Origin: Rhizobiaceae bacterium
GTDB taxonomy: Bacteria > Pseudomonadota > Alphaproteobacteria > Rhizobiales > Rhizobiaceae
Assembly: GCA_017640615.1 (NCBI GenBank)
Contig: JAEPQK010000002.1
Span: 310,001-374,000 of the forward strand
Length of the DNA: 64,000 nucleotides
Direction: 5' to 3'
Shown here: positions 14,915-35,833 of the stretch, piece by piece
Layout of the letters: the number at the start of each line of letters is the position of its first letter
Position numbering within the stretch: position 1 is the stretch's first letter
Notes under the pieces: generated by a model
Told to the model about the DNA's origin: nothing
Databases searched by the model: none
The model's input: the letters and a program-made list of their open reading frames with translations, nothing else
Made by a program: the position numbers and the translations under genes

Positions 14915-14994
14915 ATTGTCGACGCCGTTCGAACGCGCGCTCGCGCGGCAAGGCTCAACCAATTGAATTTATTGCATAGTCGTGCGTTGCTTGA

Positions 14995-15900
14995 TCAGGC
15001 CGCGCGCTTTGCGCTCGCCGTGGGCTCACCGGTTTTTCTTCTCAGAAATGCGATGATCTTGCCGGGCAACCCGGCCGTTTCCAGCAAGGGTGCGTGGCCT
15101 TGGCCGGCAACCGTAATTGTCTCGAGATCAGGATGACGTTTTTCCATCTGTTCCAGTGTCTCGGGTGACAGCAGCAACGAATTCTCGCCGCGAACTGCCA
15201 GCACCGGCAAGCCCGACAATCCCATAAATTGCGGCCAGAACTCCGGCAGCGCCTTACTGAGGTTGACGCTTTTCAGCGTGTTCAGAAGCGCGGGATCGAA
15301 ATCCGGCACAGGCCTTCCGTTCTCGTCGCGATAGATTGCCCGAACCGCGCGCTGCCAGTCGGCGTCGCTGAGTTTTGTGAAAACGCCCTTCTGGGCGGAC
15401 TTCTGTATGGCAACGGCTTCTTCGAAGGTCGCCGGTTTCGGTGCGCGTTCCAGATAAGACCTGATCTGAGCAAGGCCGCTGCCTTCCACCACCGGTCCGA
15501 TATCGTTGAGGACGACGGCTTTCAGAAGCCCGGGCCGCATGGCTGCCAGCACGAAGGTGATTAGCCCGCCGCGCGAGGTCCCGATGAACGCGGCGTGTTC
15601 AATGCCAAGCGCGGTCAGACCGGCCACGACATCGCCCGCTTCCACGATAGGATCGTAGTTGCGCCAGTTTGGATCATAGGCTGAACGCCCGCGCCCGCGA
15701 TAGTCGAACGAGATGACGTGCCGAGGCGATCGTCCGCTCGATAGCTGCACCGCGAGATCGTGAAAGTCGGCTGCGTTACGCGTCAGCCCGGCAAGGCAGA
15801 CAACGGGCAACGCATCGCTGTCCTGCGCGCCATAGAGGCGGGCATACAGTCTCAACCCGTCGCTCGCCGTGTAGAAGAAGTCTTCGAATTCGTTGTCCAT
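14995..15900 (-). CDS. Alpha/beta hydrolase
   Basis: 301-aa alpha/beta-hydrolase-fold protein. The nucleophile elbow is GTSRGG (Ser in AAFIGTSRGGLITFV). The oxyanion-hole strand motif is VVCLAGLTRNAADF, and the C-terminal catalytic His is in GQGHAPLLE. An N-terminal YTASDGLRLYARLYG is typical of soluble esterase/epoxide-hydrolase relatives. Its ATG overlaps the stop of the upstream lytic transglycosylase by one base, so the two are co-transcribed. The substrate is unknown. Confidence 0.85.
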   Translation of the reverse strand: MDNEFEDFFYTASDGLRLYARLYGAQDSDALPVVCLAGLTRNAADFHDLAVQLSSGRSPRHVISFDYRGRGRSAYDPNWRNYDPIVEAGDVVAGLTALGIEHAAFIGTSRGGLITFVLAAMRPGLLKAVVLNDIGPVVEGSGLAQIRSYLERAPKPATFEEAVAIQKSAQKGVFTKLSDADWQRAVRAIYRDENGRPVPDFDPALLNTLKSVNLSKALPEFWPQFMGLSGLPVLAVRGENSLLLSPETLEQMEKRHPDLETITVAGQGHAPLLETAGLPGKIIAFLRRKTGEPTASAKRAA

Positions 15901-27541: not shown

Positions 27542-28306
27542 ATGGAATGGCGCGACGAGGGAATCATTCTCGGCACCCGCAAGCATGGCGAAACCAGCGC
27601 CATTCTTGAGGTGATGACGCGTCAGCGCGGGCGCCATCTGGGTTTGGTCCGCGGCGGACGCTCACGCAAGCTTCAGCCGCTCTTGCAGCCGGGCAACGAG
27701 GTCGAAATTCACTGGCGCGCGCGGCTCGACGAGCATCTCGGCACATTTCAGGTCGAGGGCCGCGAGCTCAATGCGGCGCGGCTCTTCGAAAGCTCGATTG
27801 CCGTCTACGGCCTGCAGCTGCTTGCGGCTCATCTGCGGCTTCTGCCGGAACGCGACCCGCACGCACGTTTGTACGAGACGCTCAAACTTCTGATCACCCA
27901 TCTGGATGACGCATCGTCCGCCGCGGAGCTGGTCATCCGCTTCGAACTCGCTTTGCTTGACGATCTGGGCTTCGGGCTCGACCTCACGCGCTGTGCTTCC
28001 AGCGGGTCGCGGGAGGAGCTCGTCTATGTTTCGCCCAAAACCGGGCGCGCGGTGTCGCGCTCGGCTGGCGAGCCGTGGCATGACCGGTTGCTTCAACTGC
28101 CTGGCTTCCTCAGCCCGGCCGCCGGTAGGCCCAACGATGCCGTGGCGCTCGATCAGGCATTTCGGCTGACAGGTTATTTTCTGACACGCCATGTTTATGA
28201 GCCACGCGGCGTGAAGGAGCCGGAGGCCAGAACCGGGTTTCTGTCGTCGGTGCGGCGGCAGGTGCGCAAGGTGCGGCACAATTGGGAGGCGATGCGGCAT
28301 GAGTGA
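27542..28306 (+). CDS. recO: DNA repair protein RecO
   Basis: 254-aa recombination mediator that loads RecA on SSB-coated gaps with RecR. An N-terminal OB fold ([45 protein letters not shown]) is followed by the helical C-terminal domain ([27 protein letters not shown], and [13 protein letters not shown]). Length is normal. The stop overlaps the start of the thioesterase gene by eight bases. Confidence 0.95.
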
Positions 28307-28829
28307 CGGCGAGGGGCTTGAGATCTACCCCGGGTTTTTCTCGCGCCTCGGCGTGGGCACAATACCCATCGAGGATCTGCCGAAATATTCAGGACTTGAG
28401 CTTTTGCAGCGCGTCGCCGACGGCACTTATCCGGCCCCGCCTATCGGCGGTCAGCTCAATTTTTCGCTCTACGAGGTATCGGAGGGCAGGGCGGTTTTTC
28501 GGGGTGTTGCTAACAAAAAACACCTGAATCCGCTCGGCAGCGTGCATGGCGGCTGGACGGCGACGATCATGGACTCTGCCCTTGCCTGCGCGGTGCAGAC
28601 GCTGCTTGCCAAAGGCGAGGCCTACACCACGGCCGAGTTCAAAGTGAACCTGATCCGCCCGATCACGCCGAAGACCGGGCTGGTGGAGTGCACCGGCACT
28701 GTGGTTCACAAAGGCCGCACGACAGCAGTGTCCGAAGCATCGCTGAGGGATACCGATGGTAAGCTCCTCGCCTTCGGTACCGAGACCTGTTCGATCTTTC
28801 CGATGTCGGACCTGATCGCCCGAAGGTAG
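28299..28829 (+). CDS. PaaI-type hotdog-fold thioesterase
   Basis: 176-aa acyl-CoA thioesterase-like protein. The hotdog core is recognisable from [23 protein letters not shown], where the GGW/D positions correspond to the active site of the PaaI/4HBT-II group, followed by [17 protein letters not shown] and a strand [14 protein letters not shown]. The natural acyl-CoA is unknown. It overlaps recO by eight bases and is the last gene of the acpS-recO run, converging with the MFS gene. Confidence 0.85.
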
Positions 28830-28831
28830 CC

Positions 28832-30067
28832 CTACTCCGCCGCTTCCGCCACCGGCCGATCGACCGGCTTTTCCGCGATCGGCCAGTGCACCACCGCCGC
28901 GAACAGGCCAAGCAGCACGCCGAGCCACCAGACGGGATCGTAGCTGCCGATGCGGTCGTAGAGATAGCCGCCGAGCCACACGCCGAGGAACGAGCCGACC
29001 TGGTGCGACAGGAAGACGATGCCGCCCAACATGCCGAGATGCCGCGTGCCGAACATGATCGCGACAAGCGCGTTGGTCGGCGGCACGGTCGAGAGCCATA
29101 ACAGCCCCATGATCACCGAAAAGACGATCACGCTGGCCGGTGTCTGCGGCAGCAGCAGGAAAGCGGTAACCAGTGCGGAGCGTCCGAGATAAATCCAGAC
29201 AAGAAGCATCGGCTTGGAATAGCGCTGGCCGGCAATGCCCGAACTCAGCGAACCGATAATGTTGAAAAAGCCGATCAGCGCCAGCGCGATCACCGCGTAG
29301 CGTGCCTCGATGCCGATGTCGGAGATATAGGCGGGAAAGTGCGCTGTGATGAAGGCGACCTGAAAACCGCATACGAAGAAGCCGGAGACCAGCAGAAGGT
29401 AGCTGCGATGCGCCAGCGCCTCGGATAGTGCCGCCGCCACCGTCTGGTTGGCATTCGCCACCTGCTGGCTGCCGCTTTCGGAATTGCCACGCAAAGGTAT
29501 CGCAAGCACGGGGATGATGAGCATCATGGCGCTCATCGCGATCAGCGAATCGTACCAGCCGACATAGTCGATCAACCCTTGCGACAGCGGCGCGAAAAGG
29601 AACATGCCCGCCGAACCCGCTGCAGTGCCGAGGCCAAACACGAAGCTGCGGCTCTCTGCAGGCACATTGCGGGCAAATGCCGCAAGTACGATACCGAACG
29701 AGCCGGCGGCCACGCCGAGGCCGACCAGCACGCCGCCGCCGATATGCAGCATCAGTGGCGTTGATGAACCTGCCATCATGGCCAGCCCCAAGGCGTACAT
29801 GACGCCGGATAGCGCCAGCACGCGCCAGGTGCCGAACTTGTCGGCCAGAGCCCCGAACACCGGCGTGCCGAGGCCCCAGGCAAGGTTCTGAAACGCCATT
29901 GCGAGGCCGAAGGTCGTGCGGTCCCAGCCCTTTTCGGCCAGCATTGGTAACTGGAAGAAACCCATCGCCGAGCGTGGCCCGAACGTCAGCGCTGCGATCA
30001 GGCAGCCGCAGGCTATGATGAGCCAGGGTAGTCTTCCGTCAATGCGGTCGGCGGCGGGCTGTGCCAT
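28832..30067 (-). CDS. MFS transporter
   Basis: 411-aa inner-membrane carrier with about 12 hydrophobic segments. The loop 2-3 motif of the major facilitator superfamily is visible as FGALADKFGTWRVLALSG, and the second-half equivalent around GIAGQRYSKPMLL. The arrangement resembles the oxalate/formate- or monocarboxylate-type MFS subgroup, but no substrate can be assigned. It stands alone, converging with the thioesterase gene and separated from mscS by 115 bases. Confidence 0.87.
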   Translation of the reverse strand: MAQPAADRIDGRLPWLIIACGCLIAALTFGPRSAMGFFQLPMLAEKGWDRTTFGLAMAFQNLAWGLGTPVFGALADKFGTWRVLALSGVMYALGLAMMAGSSTPLMLHIGGGVLVGLGVAAGSFGIVLAAFARNVPAESRSFVFGLGTAAGSAGMFLFAPLSQGLIDYVGWYDSLIAMSAMMLIIPVLAIPLRGNSESGSQQVANANQTVAAALSEALAHRSYLLLVSGFFVCGFQVAFITAHFPAYISDIGIEARYAVIALALIGFFNIIGSLSSGIAGQRYSKPMLLVWIYLGRSALVTAFLLLPQTPASVIVFSVIMGLLWLSTVPPTNALVAIMFGTRHLGMLGGIVFLSHQVGSFLGVWLGGYLYDRIGSYDPVWWLGVLLGLFAAVVHWPIAEKPVDRPVAEAAE

Positions 30068-30182
30068 AGGTCAAGGATCCTGACTGAACTCGCCGGAATA
30101 ATAGGCGCGACGCCAATCGGAACAAATGAATTGTCGGCGCGGAACGATCAAATTAATTGACCGTTCCGCGCCCCACCCGGGA

Positions 30183-31061
30183 TCAGCTTGCCTTGCGCGC
30201 CGGCTTTTTCGGCTTGGTGTCGACTGGAATGTAGTGGATGTCCCGCTGCGGGAAGGGGATTGAAATCCCGTTCTTGTCGAAGGCCATCTTCGCTGCCTTG
30301 GTCAGGTCGAGCCGCGTCTGCCACCAGTTTGTGGTCATCGTCCAGTAGCGGCAAGTTACATTGACCGCACTGTCGCCCAGCTCCACGACAAATGCTTCGG
30401 GCGCTGGATCGGAGAGCACACGGTCGTCGCCTTTGGCGAGGTCGAGCAGCAACTTCTTCGCAAGGTCGATATCGTCGTCATAGCCGATGCCGATTGTGAG
30501 ATCGTAACGGCGCTGCGGGTTGCGCGAATAGTTGGTCACCGCCGTGTTCCAGAGTTCGCTGTTGGGCGCGAAGAGATAGACCCCGTCGAGCATCTTGATC
30601 TCTGTCGCGAACAACCCGACCTCCACGACCGTGCCGCTGATCGAACCTGTCGAGATAAATTCGCCCACGCGAAACGGCCTCAGTACCAGAAGCATGATGC
30701 CTGCCGCGATGTTTTGCAGTGTTCCCTGCAGCGCCAGACCAATCGCCAGGCCAACCGCACCAAGGGCTGCGATGATCGAAGCGGTCTGCACGCCAAACTG
30801 GGCCAGTACCGTGACGAGGAACAGCGCGAGAACGGCGTAGCGCAGCCCCTTGGACAGAAAGCGCCGCAGCGTTTCGTCGAAACCGCGAATTTCGCCGAAG
30901 AGGCGGTAGGACCATTTCTCCACCATGCGGGCCACGATGAGGCCGATAATGAGGAGGACGACTGCGCCGAGGATCGAAAAGGAATAACTGACGATCAGCG
31001 CCCCGGCTTCGTTAAGCGCGCCTTCGACTGCTTTGAAGAGCTCGTCGGTGCTGAAATCCAT
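30183..31061 (-). CDS. mscS: Small-conductance mechanosensitive channel (MscS family)
   Basis: 292-aa homoheptameric inner-membrane channel released by membrane tension in hypo-osmotic shock. Three transmembrane segments (residues ~20-45, 65-90, 95-125); TM3 pore helix GAVGLAIGLALQGTLQNIAAGIML with the Gly/Ala packing pattern, then the beta domain GEFISTGSISGTVVEVGLFATEI and the C-terminal vestibule, ending in a lysine-rich tail (KPKKPARKAS). ATG at 31061 with AAGGAG upstream; the longer frame from 31298 has no ribosome site. Confidence 0.93.
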   Translation of the reverse strand: MDFSTDELFKAVEGALNEAGALIVSYSFSILGAVVLLIIGLIVARMVEKWSYRLFGEIRGFDETLRRFLSKGLRYAVLALFLVTVLAQFGVQTASIIAALGAVGLAIGLALQGTLQNIAAGIMLLVLRPFRVGEFISTGSISGTVVEVGLFATEIKMLDGVYLFAPNSELWNTAVTNYSRNPQRRYDLTIGIGYDDDIDLAKKLLLDLAKGDDRVLSDPAPEAFVVELGDSAVNVTCRYWTMTTNWWQTRLDLTKAAKMAFDKNGISIPFPQRDIHYIPVDTKPKKPARKAS

Positions 31062-31291
31062 ATTGGCTTGCTCCTTGATAGTTGAACTTCGCTCGATCCC
31101 CTGTGAGGCTGACGCGGCCCGGCGAAAAAAGCGCCGGATCGCGACTCGCGCCACCGCCGGAACATAGCGCGCTGGTTGGAATTTGCTGCCACAATTCGGC
31201 CCAATTTCGCGCGCGATAGGCGATTTGGGCTTGCCGAACGAAGACCGCGCGCAAGCGCCCCGGGTTTCGGTCTTCGCGGGTTCCTCAAGGC

Positions 31292-32392
31292 ATGCCATTT
31301 GCCATACGCCCTGCGCGGGCAGCCGACATCGACGCGCTTGTCGCCATCGAGACTGCGGCTTTCGAAACCGACCGCATTTCGCGCCGTTCGTTCAGGACAT
31401 TGCTGGAGCGCGAATCCGCGACAACGCTGATCGCCGAGGCCGAAGGGCGAGCTGCCGGTTATGCGATGGTGCTTTTCCGTCGTGGCAGCGGCGTTGCGCG
31501 GCTCTATTCGCTGGCGCGGCTTCCGGGGCCTGAGGGCACCGGGCTTGGGCGCGAGCTTCTGGAAGCTGCCGAGAAGGCAGCCTACGAACGCGGACGCCTC
31601 CTGCTGCGCCTTGAAGTGAGCGAGCGCAACGGCCGCGCAATCGCGCTTTATGAGCGCAAGGGCTATCGCCACATCGGCGCGGAGCCGAACTACTACGAAG
31701 ACGGCGCCGGCGCCTTCAGGCTGGAGAAGATCCTGCGCGGGGAGGGCGGCTCATCGACCGACATTCCCTATTACGAACAGTCGGTCGATTTCACCTGCGG
31801 CCCCTGCTGCCTGATGATGGCGTTGGCGCATTTCCAGCCCGGCTTCAAGCCTGACGCGGTGACCGAGATCAGGCTCTGGCGCGAGGCGACCACCGTGTTC
31901 ATGATGTCGGGGCCCGGCGGCTGCGAGCCGTTCGGCCTCGCGGCTGTTGCGCATGACCACGGTCTGTCGGCGGAGATCATCGTTTCGCATCCGGGCGCGC
32001 TTTTCTTGCAATCCGTGCGCAGCGCGGAAAAACGCTGGGTGATGGAGCGGGCGCAGGAGGACTTTCGCAACCGTGTGCGCGCCGCGCGCATTCCCGTAGC
32101 CAACCGCACCTTTGCGCTGGAGGATGTCCGGTCCGCACTTGCTGCCGGCAAGCTCGTGGTGGTGCTCGTCAGCGGCTATCTGATGTTCGGAAAGAAAGTG
32201 CCGCACTGGGTGCTGGTGTTGGCCGACGAGGACGATCACTTCATCATGCACGATCCCTGGGTCGAGGACGAAAGGGGCGAGACGCGCATCGACGCGGCCG
32301 CCATCCCCGTTCCGCATGATGTATTCTATTCTATGGCGCGTTTTGGCGGCATGCGCGCGGCTGTCATATTGGGAGAGGGCAAACGACAATGA
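31292..32392 (+). CDS. GNAT N-acetyltransferase fused to a C39-like peptidase domain
   Basis: 366-aa two-domain protein. Residues ~1-150 are GNAT (GYAMVLFRRGSGVARLYSLA, acetyl-CoA loop PGPEGTGLGRELLEAAE, ALYERKGYRH). Residues ~160-366 are a C39/papain-like domain: YYEQSVDFTCGPCCLMMAL with oxyanion Gln and catalytic Cys, KVPHWVLVLADEDD with the His, and HDPW with the Asp, so the triad looks complete. There is no transporter part, unlike bacteriocin C39 peptidases. Its stop overlaps the start of the ATP-grasp gene (ATGA). Acetylation plus peptide cleavage or condensation is suggested; the substrate is unknown. Confidence 0.88.
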   Translation: MPFAIRPARAADIDALVAIETAAFETDRISRRSFRTLLERESATTLIAEAEGRAAGYAMVLFRRGSGVARLYSLARLPGPEGTGLGRELLEAAEKAAYERGRLLLRLEVSERNGRAIALYERKGYRHIGAEPNYYEDGAGAFRLEKILRGEGGSSTDIPYYEQSVDFTCGPCCLMMALAHFQPGFKPDAVTEIRLWREATTVFMMSGPGGCEPFGLAAVAHDHGLSAEIIVSHPGALFLQSVRSAEKRWVMERAQEDFRNRVRAARIPVANRTFALEDVRSALAAGKLVVVLVSGYLMFGKKVPHWVLVLADEDDHFIMHDPWVEDERGETRIDAAAIPVPHDVFYSMARFGGMRAAVILGEGKRQ

Positions 32393-33840
32393 GCTGGGTG
32401 ATCCTGACCGGCCGCGCCGGCGATCTCGACCAGGTGGCTACACCGCACAAGATCATCACCAACCGCGACTACTTGGCTCATCCTTCGCTCTTTCGCGGCC
32501 AGCCGCCGAAAGTGATCAACCTGTCGAACAGCTATGCCTACCAGTCGCGCGGCTATTACGCCTCGCTGCTGGCCTCTTCGCGCGGCCACAAGGTCATTCC
32601 CACCGTGGAGACGATGATCGATCTGTCGGAGAGGAAGCTCTACGAAAACGCACTGCCGGAGCTGGAACAGGCGCTCAACAAATGCCGCAAGGAGCTCGGC
32701 GGTGCGTTTCCGCGCACCGTCTCCGTATTTTTCGGTATGGGGCCGTCCAAGGTATGGGACCGTTTTGCCCGGCTGTTGTTCGACTGGTTCCGTGCGCCAT
32801 CGCTGGAAGTCACGATCGAGGATGGTCAGTGGGCCGCGATCCGCAAAATCGGCTTCCTGCCGATTGCGCGCATGGATTCCGAGGGCAAGACGCGGTTTCT
32901 GGAATGCATGGAGCGTTACACGGCGCGCGAATGGCGCGACTCACGCACCCGCACGCCCGCGCGCTACACCTTCGCCACACTGATCGATGCCAACGAAGAG
33001 CTTCCGCCGTCCTCTGTCGCATCGCTGCGCCACTGGTCGCGCGTGGCCGCAAAGATGGGCGTCGAGGTCGAGCCGATCACGAAGAAGGATCTCGCCCGGC
33101 TCGCGAACTATGACGCGCTTTTCATTCGCGAAACGACGGCCATTTCCAACCACACATACCGCTTTGCCCGCCGCGCCCAGCAGGAAGGCATGCCGGTGAT
33201 CGACGATCCGCTGTCGATGATCCGTTGCACGAACAAGGTCTATCTCAACGAGCTGATGGCGGCGAACAAGGTGCCTGTGCCGCCGACGGTGATGATCGCG
33301 GGCGCCAGCGATCTGGAGCTTGCCGCTGAGACGCTTGGCTTTCCGCTGGTTCTGAAAATTCCGGACAGTTCGTTCTCGCGCGGCGTCAAAAAGGCGTCGG
33401 ACTTCAGGGAGCTGAAAGAGCTCGCGACGAAGTGGCTGGAAGATTCCGACCTCCTGATCGCACAGAAATTCATGCCGACCGAGTTCGACTGGCGCATCGG
33501 CGTGCTGGGCGGCGAGCCGCTATTTTCGGTTCAGTACCTGATGGCGCGTAAGCACTGGCAGATCGTCAATCATGAACGCCGTGGCCGGCCGGACGAGGGC
33601 GGTTTCCGCACTTTCACGCTGAAGGAAACGCCCGCCGATGTGATCGACGTTGCGGTGCGCGCCGCCCGCTGCATTGGCGACGGGCTCTACGGCGTCGACC
33701 TCAAGGAGACGCCGGATGGCGTTTGCGTCATCGAGGTCAACGACAACCCCAATCTCGACCATGGCTGCGAAGACGCCGGCGAGAAGGACGAAGTCTGGAC
33801 GCGCCTGACCGACTGGTTCCTCAAACGGCTGGAGCGGTAA
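32389..33840 (+). CDS. RimK-like ATP-grasp ligase with N-terminal RLAN-type domain
   Basis: 483 aa. The N-terminal half (~1-200) is the domain found with RimK-like ligases (NRDYLAHPSLFRGQPPKVINLSNSYAYQS). The C-terminal ATP-grasp runs from ~270: YNEL-type lysine region KVYLNELMAANKVPVPPT, VLKIPDSSFSRGVKKA, IAQKFMPTEFDWRIGVLGG and Mg-binding EVNDNPNLDHG. Such enzymes form peptide-type bonds through acyl-phosphate intermediates; RimK itself adds glutamate to S6. Translational coupling to the GNAT-C39 gene suggests a joint peptide-modifying pathway. The target is unknown. Confidence 0.88.
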   Translation: MSWVILTGRAGDLDQVATPHKIITNRDYLAHPSLFRGQPPKVINLSNSYAYQSRGYYASLLASSRGHKVIPTVETMIDLSERKLYENALPELEQALNKCRKELGGAFPRTVSVFFGMGPSKVWDRFARLLFDWFRAPSLEVTIEDGQWAAIRKIGFLPIARMDSEGKTRFLECMERYTAREWRDSRTRTPARYTFATLIDANEELPPSSVASLRHWSRVAAKMGVEVEPITKKDLARLANYDALFIRETTAISNHTYRFARRAQQEGMPVIDDPLSMIRCTNKVYLNELMAANKVPVPPTVMIAGASDLELAAETLGFPLVLKIPDSSFSRGVKKASDFRELKELATKWLEDSDLLIAQKFMPTEFDWRIGVLGGEPLFSVQYLMARKHWQIVNHERRGRPDEGGFRTFTLKETPADVIDVAVRAARCIGDGLYGVDLKETPDGVCVIEVNDNPNLDHGCEDAGEKDEVWTRLTDWFLKRLER

Positions 33841-33850
33841 CGTGCCGGCG

Positions 33851-34453
33851 CTATGCTCGACCAATTTCGTTGAACCGCGCCACGAATGCCTTCTGAACCG
33901 ACTTCGCAGGGCGCGCGGCTAGGTCGAAGCCGTCGGTCGAAATGCCGCGCGGCCGACTGAAATACTTCGATGCCTCTCGGTCTGAAAAGCCGGCCAGCTC
34001 GGTCGCCTCGAAATAGGCCGCGATCTGATCTGCCCGCTTGATCGCTTTCTTCAGTGTTTGCGGCAGTTCGGCAGGCAGGCCGAAATGCAGGTGGATCGCG
34101 TGCTGCAGCCGCGCTTCGACCGCCTTGTAGCCACCGCCGACAACGGCCTTGAAAGGCGAGATCATGTCGCCGATCACATATTCGGGGGCGTCATGCAGCA
34201 GCGCGGCAAGCTGGTCGCGCGGGGAAGCCTTTGCGGCGGTTCTTGTGAAGATCGCCTCTACCAAAAGCGAGTGCTGGGCAACGGAAAAAGCGTGGTCGCC
34301 GACCGTCTGGCCGTTCCAGCGCGCCACGCGGGCAAGCCCGTGCGCGATGTCGGCGATTTCGATGTCGAGCGGTGAAGGGTCGAGCAGGTCGAGGCGGCGG
34401 CCCGAAAGCATGCGCTGCCACGCGCGGGAAGGTGCGCCGGGTTTGTCGGCCAC
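33851..34453 (-). CDS. HD-domain phosphohydrolase (YfbR-like)
   Basis: 200 aa with a compact HD domain: VGDHAFSVAQHSLLVEAI, LLHDAPEYVIGDMISPFK and IKRADQIAAYFEATEL give the H...HD...D metal ligands. This pattern resembles 5'-nucleotidases of the YfbR group, which dephosphorylate deoxynucleoside monophosphates; the specific substrate is not shown. The ATG sits on the stop of ygfZ (one shared base), so both are in one transcript. Confidence 0.87.
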   Translation of the reverse strand: MADKPGAPSRAWQRMLSGRRLDLLDPSPLDIEIADIAHGLARVARWNGQTVGDHAFSVAQHSLLVEAIFTRTAAKASPRDQLAALLHDAPEYVIGDMISPFKAVVGGGYKAVEARLQHAIHLHFGLPAELPQTLKKAIKRADQIAAYFEATELAGFSDREASKYFSRPRGISTDGFDLAARPAKSVQKAFVARFNEIGRA

Positions 34454-35331
34454 TACTCGGCCTCCGCGTCGCGTTCGGGGAAGGTCAATTTCGCCCAGCC
34501 GGGAATGGCGAGCGAGACCTCGACGTCACCCACAAGCAGCTTGGTGCCGGCGTCGAGCGCGGCCTTCACCCTGTCGATGCGCGCAATGGCGAGACCACGT
34601 GTTCCAGCCACCGTACCGAGTGTGCCGATTACGCGCCTGTCAGCGGTGATGTCCGTACCCGACGGCGGCAGGGCTGTGTCGGCCCGAGCCAGTAGAACGC
34701 GCCGCCGTGCGGTGCCGCGATGCTGCATGCGCGACACCACTTCCTGACCGACGAAGCAGCCTTTCTTCAGTCCCACGCCACCATTCTGATCGAAGAGCAC
34801 ATCATGCGGAAACGCATCGCTCAGCGCATAATCTGCGCCGCTCTCCGCCACACCATGTTCGGCGCGCAATGCGGCATAGACATCTGCCGCCGCATCGGCC
34901 GCAGGCGCCGCGCCATATGCGCGCCAAACCTCGGCGTCGGCAAAGCGGCGGTCGCGCAGCCAGCCTGAATCGGATTGTGAAGTGCTTGAATCATCGCGCG
35001 AGGAATGTGAATCAACCTGCCATTGGACGGCGACAGGCTGTTGTTCTTGAACGTCAATTTCGACCTTCGCCCGCAGCTTGTAGAGCATGAGCCGGCGTTG
35101 GAAATCACTGGCGACATCGGTTCGGCACTCGAGTTGGAACCCGTCTTCGCCGTGCCGTGAAATAAGAAAATCGAACAGTATCTTGCCCTGCGGCGTCAGC
35201 AGAGCGCCGGGCCAAGCCTCGCCCTCGGCGATGGCTTCGAGGTCGGTGGTGACGATGTTCTGCAGGAACGCACGGGCGTCTGGCCCGTTTGCGGTGATCA
35301 GTGCGCGGTCAGTCAGGTGAACGAGTGGCAT
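34453..35331 (-). CDS. ygfZ: Folate-binding protein YgfZ (GcvT-related)
   Basis: 292-aa tetrahydrofolate-binding protein needed for repair or assembly of some Fe-S enzymes. The diagnostic YgfZ motif KGCFVGQEVVSRMQHRG is present at about residue 195, with the GcvT-like N-terminal start (LTDRALITANGPDARAFLQNIVT). A low-complexity Ser/Asp stretch near residues 105-125 (SHSSRDDSSTSQSDSGWL) is an unusual insertion and could be a local expansion. It is upstream of and coupled to the HD phosphohydrolase gene. Confidence 0.93.
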   Translation of the reverse strand: MPLVHLTDRALITANGPDARAFLQNIVTTDLEAIAEGEAWPGALLTPQGKILFDFLISRHGEDGFQLECRTDVASDFQRRLMLYKLRAKVEIDVQEQQPVAVQWQVDSHSSRDDSSTSQSDSGWLRDRRFADAEVWRAYGAAPAADAAADVYAALRAEHGVAESGADYALSDAFPHDVLFDQNGGVGLKKGCFVGQEVVSRMQHRGTARRRVLLARADTALPPSGTDITADRRVIGTLGTVAGTRGLAIARIDRVKAALDAGTKLLVGDVEVSLAIPGWAKLTFPERDAEAE

Positions 35332-35401
35332 GGCGGGTCAACATGTTGATACGCACCCTACCTATGCCGCTCGGATCGCACCCACAAGGCTGGTCGATTG
35401 C

Positions 35402-35833
35402 TCAGGTGCGGCCTTCCTGACTCCGCGAATTGCGCAGCCGCGCGACAAGCTCGCGCAGCCGCTCCGCGCCCTTGGCGCTCAGGCCGCCATTTTCGTAGTC
35501 GCGCAAGACGGTCGCTTCCAGCTCTTCCGCCAGCCGGTCGAGTGGTGCCGGCCGGCGCGGATCGTCAGGATCGTAGTGATCGAAAAGATTGATCCAGCGG
35601 TCGCTTTCGCGCCCGAAATGCATCAGCCGGTCGAGATAGGCTTCCGGGTCGTCGCGGCTGGAAACGAAGCCGAGCGCTGCGGCGGCCAGCGATAGCGGCA
35701 TCATGACGAAGTCGCGCAGGCCGTCAGCGAATAGCTTTATCTGGAGAAGCAGCACGCGCCGCATCAGCCGCAGGCGGCTGTGCCGGTGCGGCACCTGCAG
35801 TTCTTGCTCGTGCTTTGCTTCGCTTGCGGCCAT
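35402..35833 (-). CDS. Conserved hypothetical membrane-associated protein
   Basis: 143 aa, function unknown. One hydrophobic segment (about residues 35-56, FVMMPLSLAAAALGFVSS) between a basic N-terminal part (RHSRLRLMRRVLLLQIK) and an acidic, helical C-terminal part (YDPDDPRRPAPLDRLAEELEATV). The sequence has normal protein composition and codon use, and a comparable protein occurs in related rhizobia as I recall. It precedes ygfZ on the same strand by about 70 bases. No enzymatic motif seen. Confidence 0.7.
   Translation of the reverse strand: MAASEAKHEQELQVPHRHSRLRLMRRVLLLQIKLFADGLRDFVMMPLSLAAAALGFVSSRDDPEAYLDRLMHFGRESDRWINLFDHYDPDDPRRPAPLDRLAEELEATVLRDYENGGLSAKGAERLRELVARLRNSRSQEGRT

Follow-up and report, generated by a model that had tools for sequence, protein, structure and literature searches.

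The window considered here is a stretch of 64,000 nucleotides from a Rhizobiaceae bacterium (GenBank assembly GCA_017640615.1, contig JAEPQK010000002.1, positions 310,001 to 374,000, forward strand). It carries two overlapping open reading frames (ORFs), of which ORF1 joins a GNAT acetyltransferase domain to a papain-like C39 domain and ORF2 encodes an ATP-grasp ligase of the RimK type. All features lie on the plus strand and are given in window coordinates:

31292..32392, plus strand: ORF1, GNAT-DUF3335 (C39-like) fusion, 366 amino acids (profile matches)
31298..31732, plus strand: GNAT domain, approximately residues 3-147, RimI/Ard1-like (profile, fold, alignment)
31613-31615, plus strand: GNAT residue E108, aligning with RimI Glu103
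31649-31651, plus strand: GNAT residue Y120, aligning with RimI Tyr115
31763..32371, plus strand: DUF3335/PF11814 papain-like domain, residues 158-360, with Q163, C169, H305 and D321 (profile, alignment)
32389..32392, plus strand: ATGA start-stop overlap of 4 bases between ORF1 and ORF2 (read from the sequence)
32389..33840, plus strand: ORF2, RLAN and RimK-type ATP-grasp ligase, 483 amino acids (profile matches)
32464..32901, plus strand: RLAN domain, residues 26-171 (PF14401)
33232..33762, plus strand: RimK-type ATP-grasp domain, residues 282-458 (PF08443)

This arrangement, including the start-stop overlap, had been read from the DNA in an initial annotation and is confirmed, while the interpretation given there, a candidate for an undescribed peptide-modifying system in which C39 belongs to the fixed components, is partly supported. 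The overlap would couple the translation of ORF1 and ORF2. Genome-wide profile searches of the 3.9 Mb assembly, which is 93% complete, returned one DUF3335 and one RLAN match.

The N-terminal part of ORF1 matches the GNAT profile PF00583 with 50.5 bits, and its acetyl-CoA loop (GxGxG), described as complete in the initial annotation, is indeed present as PEGTGLG. Usually Arg or Gln precedes this loop in GNATs; here the preceding residue is Glu. E108 is invariant in the aligned loci (77/77), and the position of Y120 is occupied by Tyr in 72 and by Phe in 5 of them. The corresponding RimI residues, Glu103 and Tyr115, are named as proton acceptor and donor of the proposed mechanism in a passage of PMC3347575. 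The predicted model of ORF1 reached a mean predicted local distance difference test score (pLDDT) of 89, and the top 14 rows of its fold search, which match over the GNAT domain, are all N-alpha-acetyltransferases (Ard1, RimI, NatA, NatC; Z 20.3-22.5). The domain looks most like the N-alpha type of acetyltransferases. It shares the fold and the catalytic Glu/Tyr with RimI and Ard1, but scores 63.9 bits with the RimI equivalog model and thereby stays below the cut-off of 86.4 bits, which a separate GNAT of the window genome narrowly passes (87.5 bits).

The C-terminal part of ORF1 scores 247.6 bits with PF11814 over residues 158-360, where the cut-off is 25. The Gln/Cys/His/Asp set noticed in the initial annotation is well conserved: Q163, C169 and H305 are identical in 41/41 domains, and D321 is Asp in 38 and Glu in 3 (one of the 41 domains comes from locus L221, which has a C39 domain without a ligase and is counted outside the 76 ligase loci described below). 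We know of no biochemistry for DUF3335 proteins. A function as bacteriocin-leader C39 peptidase was considered and rejected: PF03412 gave no match at E<=0.01, ORF1 contains no ABC domain, and there is no ABC transporter among the genes scanned around the pair (28299-35833), as the initial annotation had remarked. Profile searches against PDB sequences gave nothing significant for the C39 domain (best E 0.055) or for RLAN (best E 1.3), and the fold-search lists were filled by GNAT matches for ORF1 and by ATP-grasp matches for ORF2, which tell nothing on the folds of these two domains.

In ORF2, the RLAN domain (PF14401, 131.5 bits) and the ATP-grasp domain (PF08443, 33.8 bits, cut-off 21) both score over their cut-offs. 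The metal motif proposed earlier is borne out by K323, D437, E449 and N451, which we take to be ATP/metal-type residues and which are identical in 76/76 aligned copies. In the predicted model (mean pLDDT 82) approximately residues 193-483 find their nearest solved folds in LysX/ArgX (Z ~28-29), with RimK just behind (~27-28); the LysX_arch equivalog model gives 86.1 bits, below its cut-off of 275.6. The alignments of conserved residues drew on loci from 37 family codes, and judged by these residues the GNAT, C39 and ligase enzymes all appear to be intact.

Comparison with other genomes revealed that the constant pair is GNAT plus ligase. RLAN was detected in 81 of 397 sampled Pseudomonadota genomes (84 matches) and DUF3335 in 63 (66 matches), and RLAN is present in 62 of the 63 genomes with DUF3335 versus 19 of the 334 without it (Fisher p ~3e-54, kinship ignored). 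Of the 66 DUF3335 matches, 60 have an RLAN match no more than 5 kb away. On the 5' side of the ligase there are 29 on its own strand and 21 on the opposite one; on the 3' side the corresponding numbers are 7 and 3. The architectures were compared at 76 ligase loci, which comprise 30 loci from the same taxonomic order as the window (of 150 genomes) and 46 of the 84 RLAN matches; the latter were picked to include all 19 DUF3335-free genomes, which means that the 40:36 split between loci with and without C39 is not a frequency. Loci L242, L243 and L249, where DUF3335 lies away from a ligase, were excluded from these counts and from the trees. A GNAT is present in 74 of the 76 loci and lies no more than 300 bp from the ligase in 72 of these 74. 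The arrangements found were GNAT-C39 then ligase (20 of 76), GNAT then ligase (18), divergent GNAT-C39 (14), divergent GNAT (12), ligase then GNAT-C39 (3), GNAT fused to the ligase (3), the same fusion plus a convergent GNAT-C39 (2), ligase then GNAT (1), ligase with both GNAT and GNAT-C39 (1) and ligase without GNAT (2). Accordingly, GNAT, RLAN and ATP-grasp form a single polypeptide at five loci (L058, L060, L061, L239, L248; confirmed by Pfam for L239 only). A GNAT also stands beside the ligase in 80/80 named relatives, which are the top-ranking 80 of 575, all of them closely related and not independent of each other; the nearest among them is Mesorhizobium sp. Z1-4 with a ligase of 94% identity, so the window probably belongs to that part of the Phyllobacteriaceae.

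The initial annotation had furthermore advised a search for a conserved third gene or a precursor peptide, and nothing of this kind recurs widely. No outside cluster of ORFs of at least 80 amino acids occurs in more than 5 of the 37 family codes; judged from their sequences, these are ABC ATPases, a LysR-type regulator and an SDR, and the larger clusters besides ligase and GNAT are antisense to the pair. Likewise, no cluster of small ORFs (25-100 amino acids, within 1.2 kb) was found in more than 4 loci, in a comparison that left out loci spanning more than 9 kb. The advice did bear fruit in one order, where a further set of partners is usual (see below).

The C39 domain is optional to the partnership of GNAT and ligase. 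It is absent from 36 of the 76 ligase loci, in two of which (G154 and G303) the genome has a GNAT-C39 elsewhere, and it is fused in 15 of the 30 same-order loci, window included; the other 15 genomes are without PF11814 (29 genomes searched). Among the 80 named relatives, 68 have C39 and 12 do not. These 12 include four Chelativorans, whose ligases are 82-83% identical, and two Nitratireductor; in the Chelativorans locus L063 the GNAT frame stops just short of the ligase start. No PF11814 was detected genome-wide in the 9 of these 12 that were searched, Chelativorans included, and three C39-bearing controls gave one match each. The earlier assumption of an integral C39 domain is thus not supported, since several close kin keep the pair without it. 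On the ligase tree of the named relatives the C39 label changes five times, all forced by starred branches, although label changes do not separate gain from loss. The absences among close kin would mainly be losses rather than gains elsewhere, because the GNATs of the C39-free Chelativorans and Nitratireductor sit near the C39-fused GNATs of the family in the GNAT tree. In the wider set, 16 label changes are required on the ligase tree but only 5 on the GNAT tree, so two GNAT partner lineages seem to have been exchanged on one ligase background. Judged from the trees, C39-fused and C39-free GNATs look like such lineages, with plain absences of C39 inside the fused lineage at L037, L044 and L214; the GNAT trees are built on few columns and have weak forks.

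As the ligase fold resembles RimK (Z ~27), ordinary RimK-like glutamylation of ribosomal protein S6, with the GNAT as an incidental neighbour, had to be weighed, as the initial annotation had already foreseen. We consider it very improbable. The RimK equivalog model PRK10446 scores 25.6 bits on ORF2 against a cut-off of 331, the protein carries the RLAN extension, and the GNAT is linked to the ligase in 74 of the 76 loci. RpsF of the window genome (L314) ends with ...REQQSEGSAS and offers no C-terminal glutamates for RimK, whereas the S6 protein of E. coli ends in EE before extension, according to a passage in PMC3347575. Moreover, neither the retropepsin RimB (PF05618, 0 matches) nor a canonical RimK (PF08443 search) was found in the 93% complete assembly; its other PF08443 matches are an ORF of 313 amino acids, which in our judgement is probably a glutathione synthetase, and one marginal match at 21.1 bits. 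A plain RimK role and S6 modification by the ligase are therefore unlikely. The RimK/RimA/RimB system of Pseudomonas is similar in concept, i.e. a RimK-type ATP-grasp ligase near a peptidase, but the system considered here differs from it by the RLAN extension, the GNAT partner, the lack of a detected PF05618 protein, the RpsF terminus and a peptidase of the cysteine instead of the aspartic type.

We propose, with a probability of roughly 0.4, that GNAT and ligase work as a unit of two enzymes whose product contains a peptide bond and carries an N-acetyl cap. An N-acetylated peptide is the simplest chemistry, because the lasting pair consists of an amide ligase and an acetyltransferase, sometimes in one polypeptide. 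The ligase would activate a carboxylate as acyl phosphate and couple it with an amine, which is the reaction of LysX, ArgX and RimK. Either before or after this ligation, the GNAT of ORF1 would acetylate the same small peptide or amino acid at its free alpha-amine. DUF3335 may then serve as an accessory that is not always present, a thiol hydrolase or acyl-transfer domain by which the product is trimmed, recycled or transferred. Presumably the two enzymes share a single target molecule, which would be a small peptide; the sequence of the reactions and the part played by C39 are put forward in the same sense. N-acetylglutaminylglutamine is made by a GNAT-ATP-grasp enzyme, and the logic could be parallel here, where direct fusions of the two domains also occur at five loci. 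The match to the model of this synthetase, TIGR03103, is nevertheless missing: the score of ORF1 is 17.7, where 569 would be needed, and ORF2 gave no match at E<=0.01. A second parallel would be the mammalian pair of acetyltransferase NAT8L and RimK-like ligase RIMKLA, with N-acetylaspartylglutamate as known product. According to PMC8836185, this acetyl dipeptide arises when its synthetases, the Rimkla product among them, join N-acetylaspartate to glutamate. The same idea as ours, capping by a GNAT after peptide ligation, was proposed in a section of PMC4431377 for another ATP-grasp clade.

Several points weigh against this proposal. The pairing has exceptions, namely L217 and L224 among the 76 loci and the Pseudomonas aeruginosa plasmid ligase L255 (7902-9491), which has no GNAT in its 17 kb; in the order of genome G480, described below, no GNAT adjoins the ligase in 18 of 20 inspected loci. 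Two GNAT lineages accompany one ligase family, and they may not catalyse the same reaction. The GNAT may act on a protein or on a small molecule, because small-molecule GNATs are close in fold (PaiA with Z 20.2, phosphinothricin acetyltransferases with ~19) and the top PDB sequence match is the small-molecule enzyme OrfE (7ypu, 35.2 bits), ahead of the RimI sequences with 31.8 and 31.2 bits. GNATs of the RimI/Ard1 type modify the N-termini of proteins, so that a protein target is favoured no less than a small peptide. Proteins are the substrates of RimI, Ard1, RimK, LysX and ArgX alike, which makes protein modification a serious alternative, yet on balance a somewhat doubtful one. The ligase would add amino acids to a carboxylate of a protein (C-terminus or side chain), the GNAT would cap the amine on this protein or tag, and the C39 domain would act as eraser by taking the tag off again, in analogy to RimK and RimB. 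Apart from the top fold rows of the GNAT, which are N-alpha-protein acetyltransferases, this is consistent with the closest ligase folds, which include LysX/ArgX with their partner LysW and RimK with RpsF, acting on protein C-termini, and RLAN could be the module that binds the target. However, no gene for such a target accompanies the pair in the compared loci, an eraser is not expected to come and go as C39 does, and S6 has no Glu tail in the window genome. Furthermore, a RimK-type extension generates a new carboxyl group rather than an amine that the GNAT could cap.

The variant partner set was found in the order of genome G480, where 20 wide regions from 19 of 78 positive genomes plus G480 itself were sampled. 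Ligase, GCS2 and N-formylglutamate amidohydrolase stand in a row in 15 of the 20 inspected loci, and in 13 of them the 5' side of the ligase is occupied, at a distance of up to ~300 bp, by a C39_2-type gene of its own; as to the partners of the ligase, the remaining loci comprise two with ligase and GNAT and three in which the ligase has none of these partners. When the other 78 loci and the window were searched by tblastn with the G480 proteins as queries, neither GCS2 nor this amidohydrolase gave a match. The order is probably Legionellales (Gammaproteobacteria), because one annotated Legionella adelaidensis record contains the same three genes, namely a RimK family protein, a glutamate-cysteine ligase family protein and an N-formylglutamate amidohydrolase. 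Links of the GCS2/amidohydrolase type with the ligase have reportedly been noted by Iyer and colleagues in 2009. An N-acyl amino acid theme seems to recur in this Legionellales-type variant, since a second amino-acid ligase (GCS2) and a member of the N-formyl-Glu amidohydrolase family join the ligase.

The separate C39_2-type gene, together with the invariant Q/C/H residues of the 41 DUF3335 domains, also bears on the idea that C39 is a transferase and not a hydrolase. It would pass an acyl or peptidyl group, produced by the ligase, to an amine, similar to BtrH in the synthesis of butirosin. BtrH_N is called closely related to C39 and C70 in a passage of PMC10318531, and the G480 C39_2-type protein does match BtrH_N, but with a score of 15.8 it stays under the cut-off of 29.7. 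The pair is kept in genomes without DUF3335 and transfer is therefore not essential to it, so that we regard this role as unlikely. In broader terms, it is conceivable, though tentative, that a conserved RLAN ligase of a widespread pathway of Pseudomonadota makes an N-acylated peptide and is served by interchangeable side modules, i.e. a stand-alone or fused GNAT, a GNAT-C39, or C39 with GCS2 and N-formylglutamate amidohydrolase in the Legionellales-type order. The cysteine-protease domain would be dispensable in such a pathway and act as an editing or transfer module.

The domain families are known, and calling the system undescribed was too strong: the fusion of DUF3335 to GNAT, the same two domains as in ORF1, is already in print and is said to be frequent in the section of PMC10318531 that cites Iyer et al. 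(2009). What is added to these proteins is the optional nature of the C39 part in the ligase partnership and, more generally, the modularity, with GNAT and ligase as core, C39 as add-on and a variant order with other partners. Searches of open-licence literature revealed, among the papers listed, no study of the pair, in agreement with the earlier remark that no product is defined, and no paper on RimK together with C39, GNAT, transposon or N-formylglutamate. Peptide-ligase roles are said to have been predicted for such neighbourhoods by Iyer and co-workers in 2009. Roughly one in five of the Pseudomonadota genomes sampled contains the ligase family, again with no product in the searched literature; if one were found, it could represent a new common bacterial metabolite or a protein cap. 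The constant pair of GNAT and ligase points to the first gene to delete, and the relatives with GNAT only provide natural controls.

Regarding the neighbours in the window, the pair is flanked by a divergent gene for an MscS channel, with an MFS transporter farther out, and by a convergent HD/YfbR-like gene that lies 11 bp beyond the ligase stop. An osmotic role via the MscS neighbour was rejected, because MscS relatives were found in 2 of 79 other loci, neither adjoining the pair. The start of the MscS ORF (30183-31298, minus strand) is probably too far upstream; an ATG at 31061 behind AGGAG fits better and would leave a gap of ~230 bp between the divergent genes. A Shine-Dalgarno pattern (AGGAG-type motifs) was not above chance in the window.

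A few loci elsewhere deserve mention. Genome G630 has three tandem RLAN ligases (L299:5208-9957) without matches to GNAT, GCS2 or amidohydrolase, and a fourth copy on another contig (L300). The plasmid ligase L255 lies near genes for gamma-glutamyltransferase, asparaginase and a glutamate/aspartate transporter. The sole sampled genome (1/397) with DUF3335 but without RLAN is G156, in which L221:8920-9621 encodes a stand-alone DUF3335 protein of 233 amino acids. Finally, genome G306 contains two extra DUF3335 proteins (L249:1758-15404) that have no ligase and in which the GNAT part is weak or unrecognised; between them lie genes whose sequences suggest an oligopeptide transporter, and a channel-like ORF of 143 amino acids occurs at both ends (1758-2189 and 14973-15404), identical over the first 110 residues.

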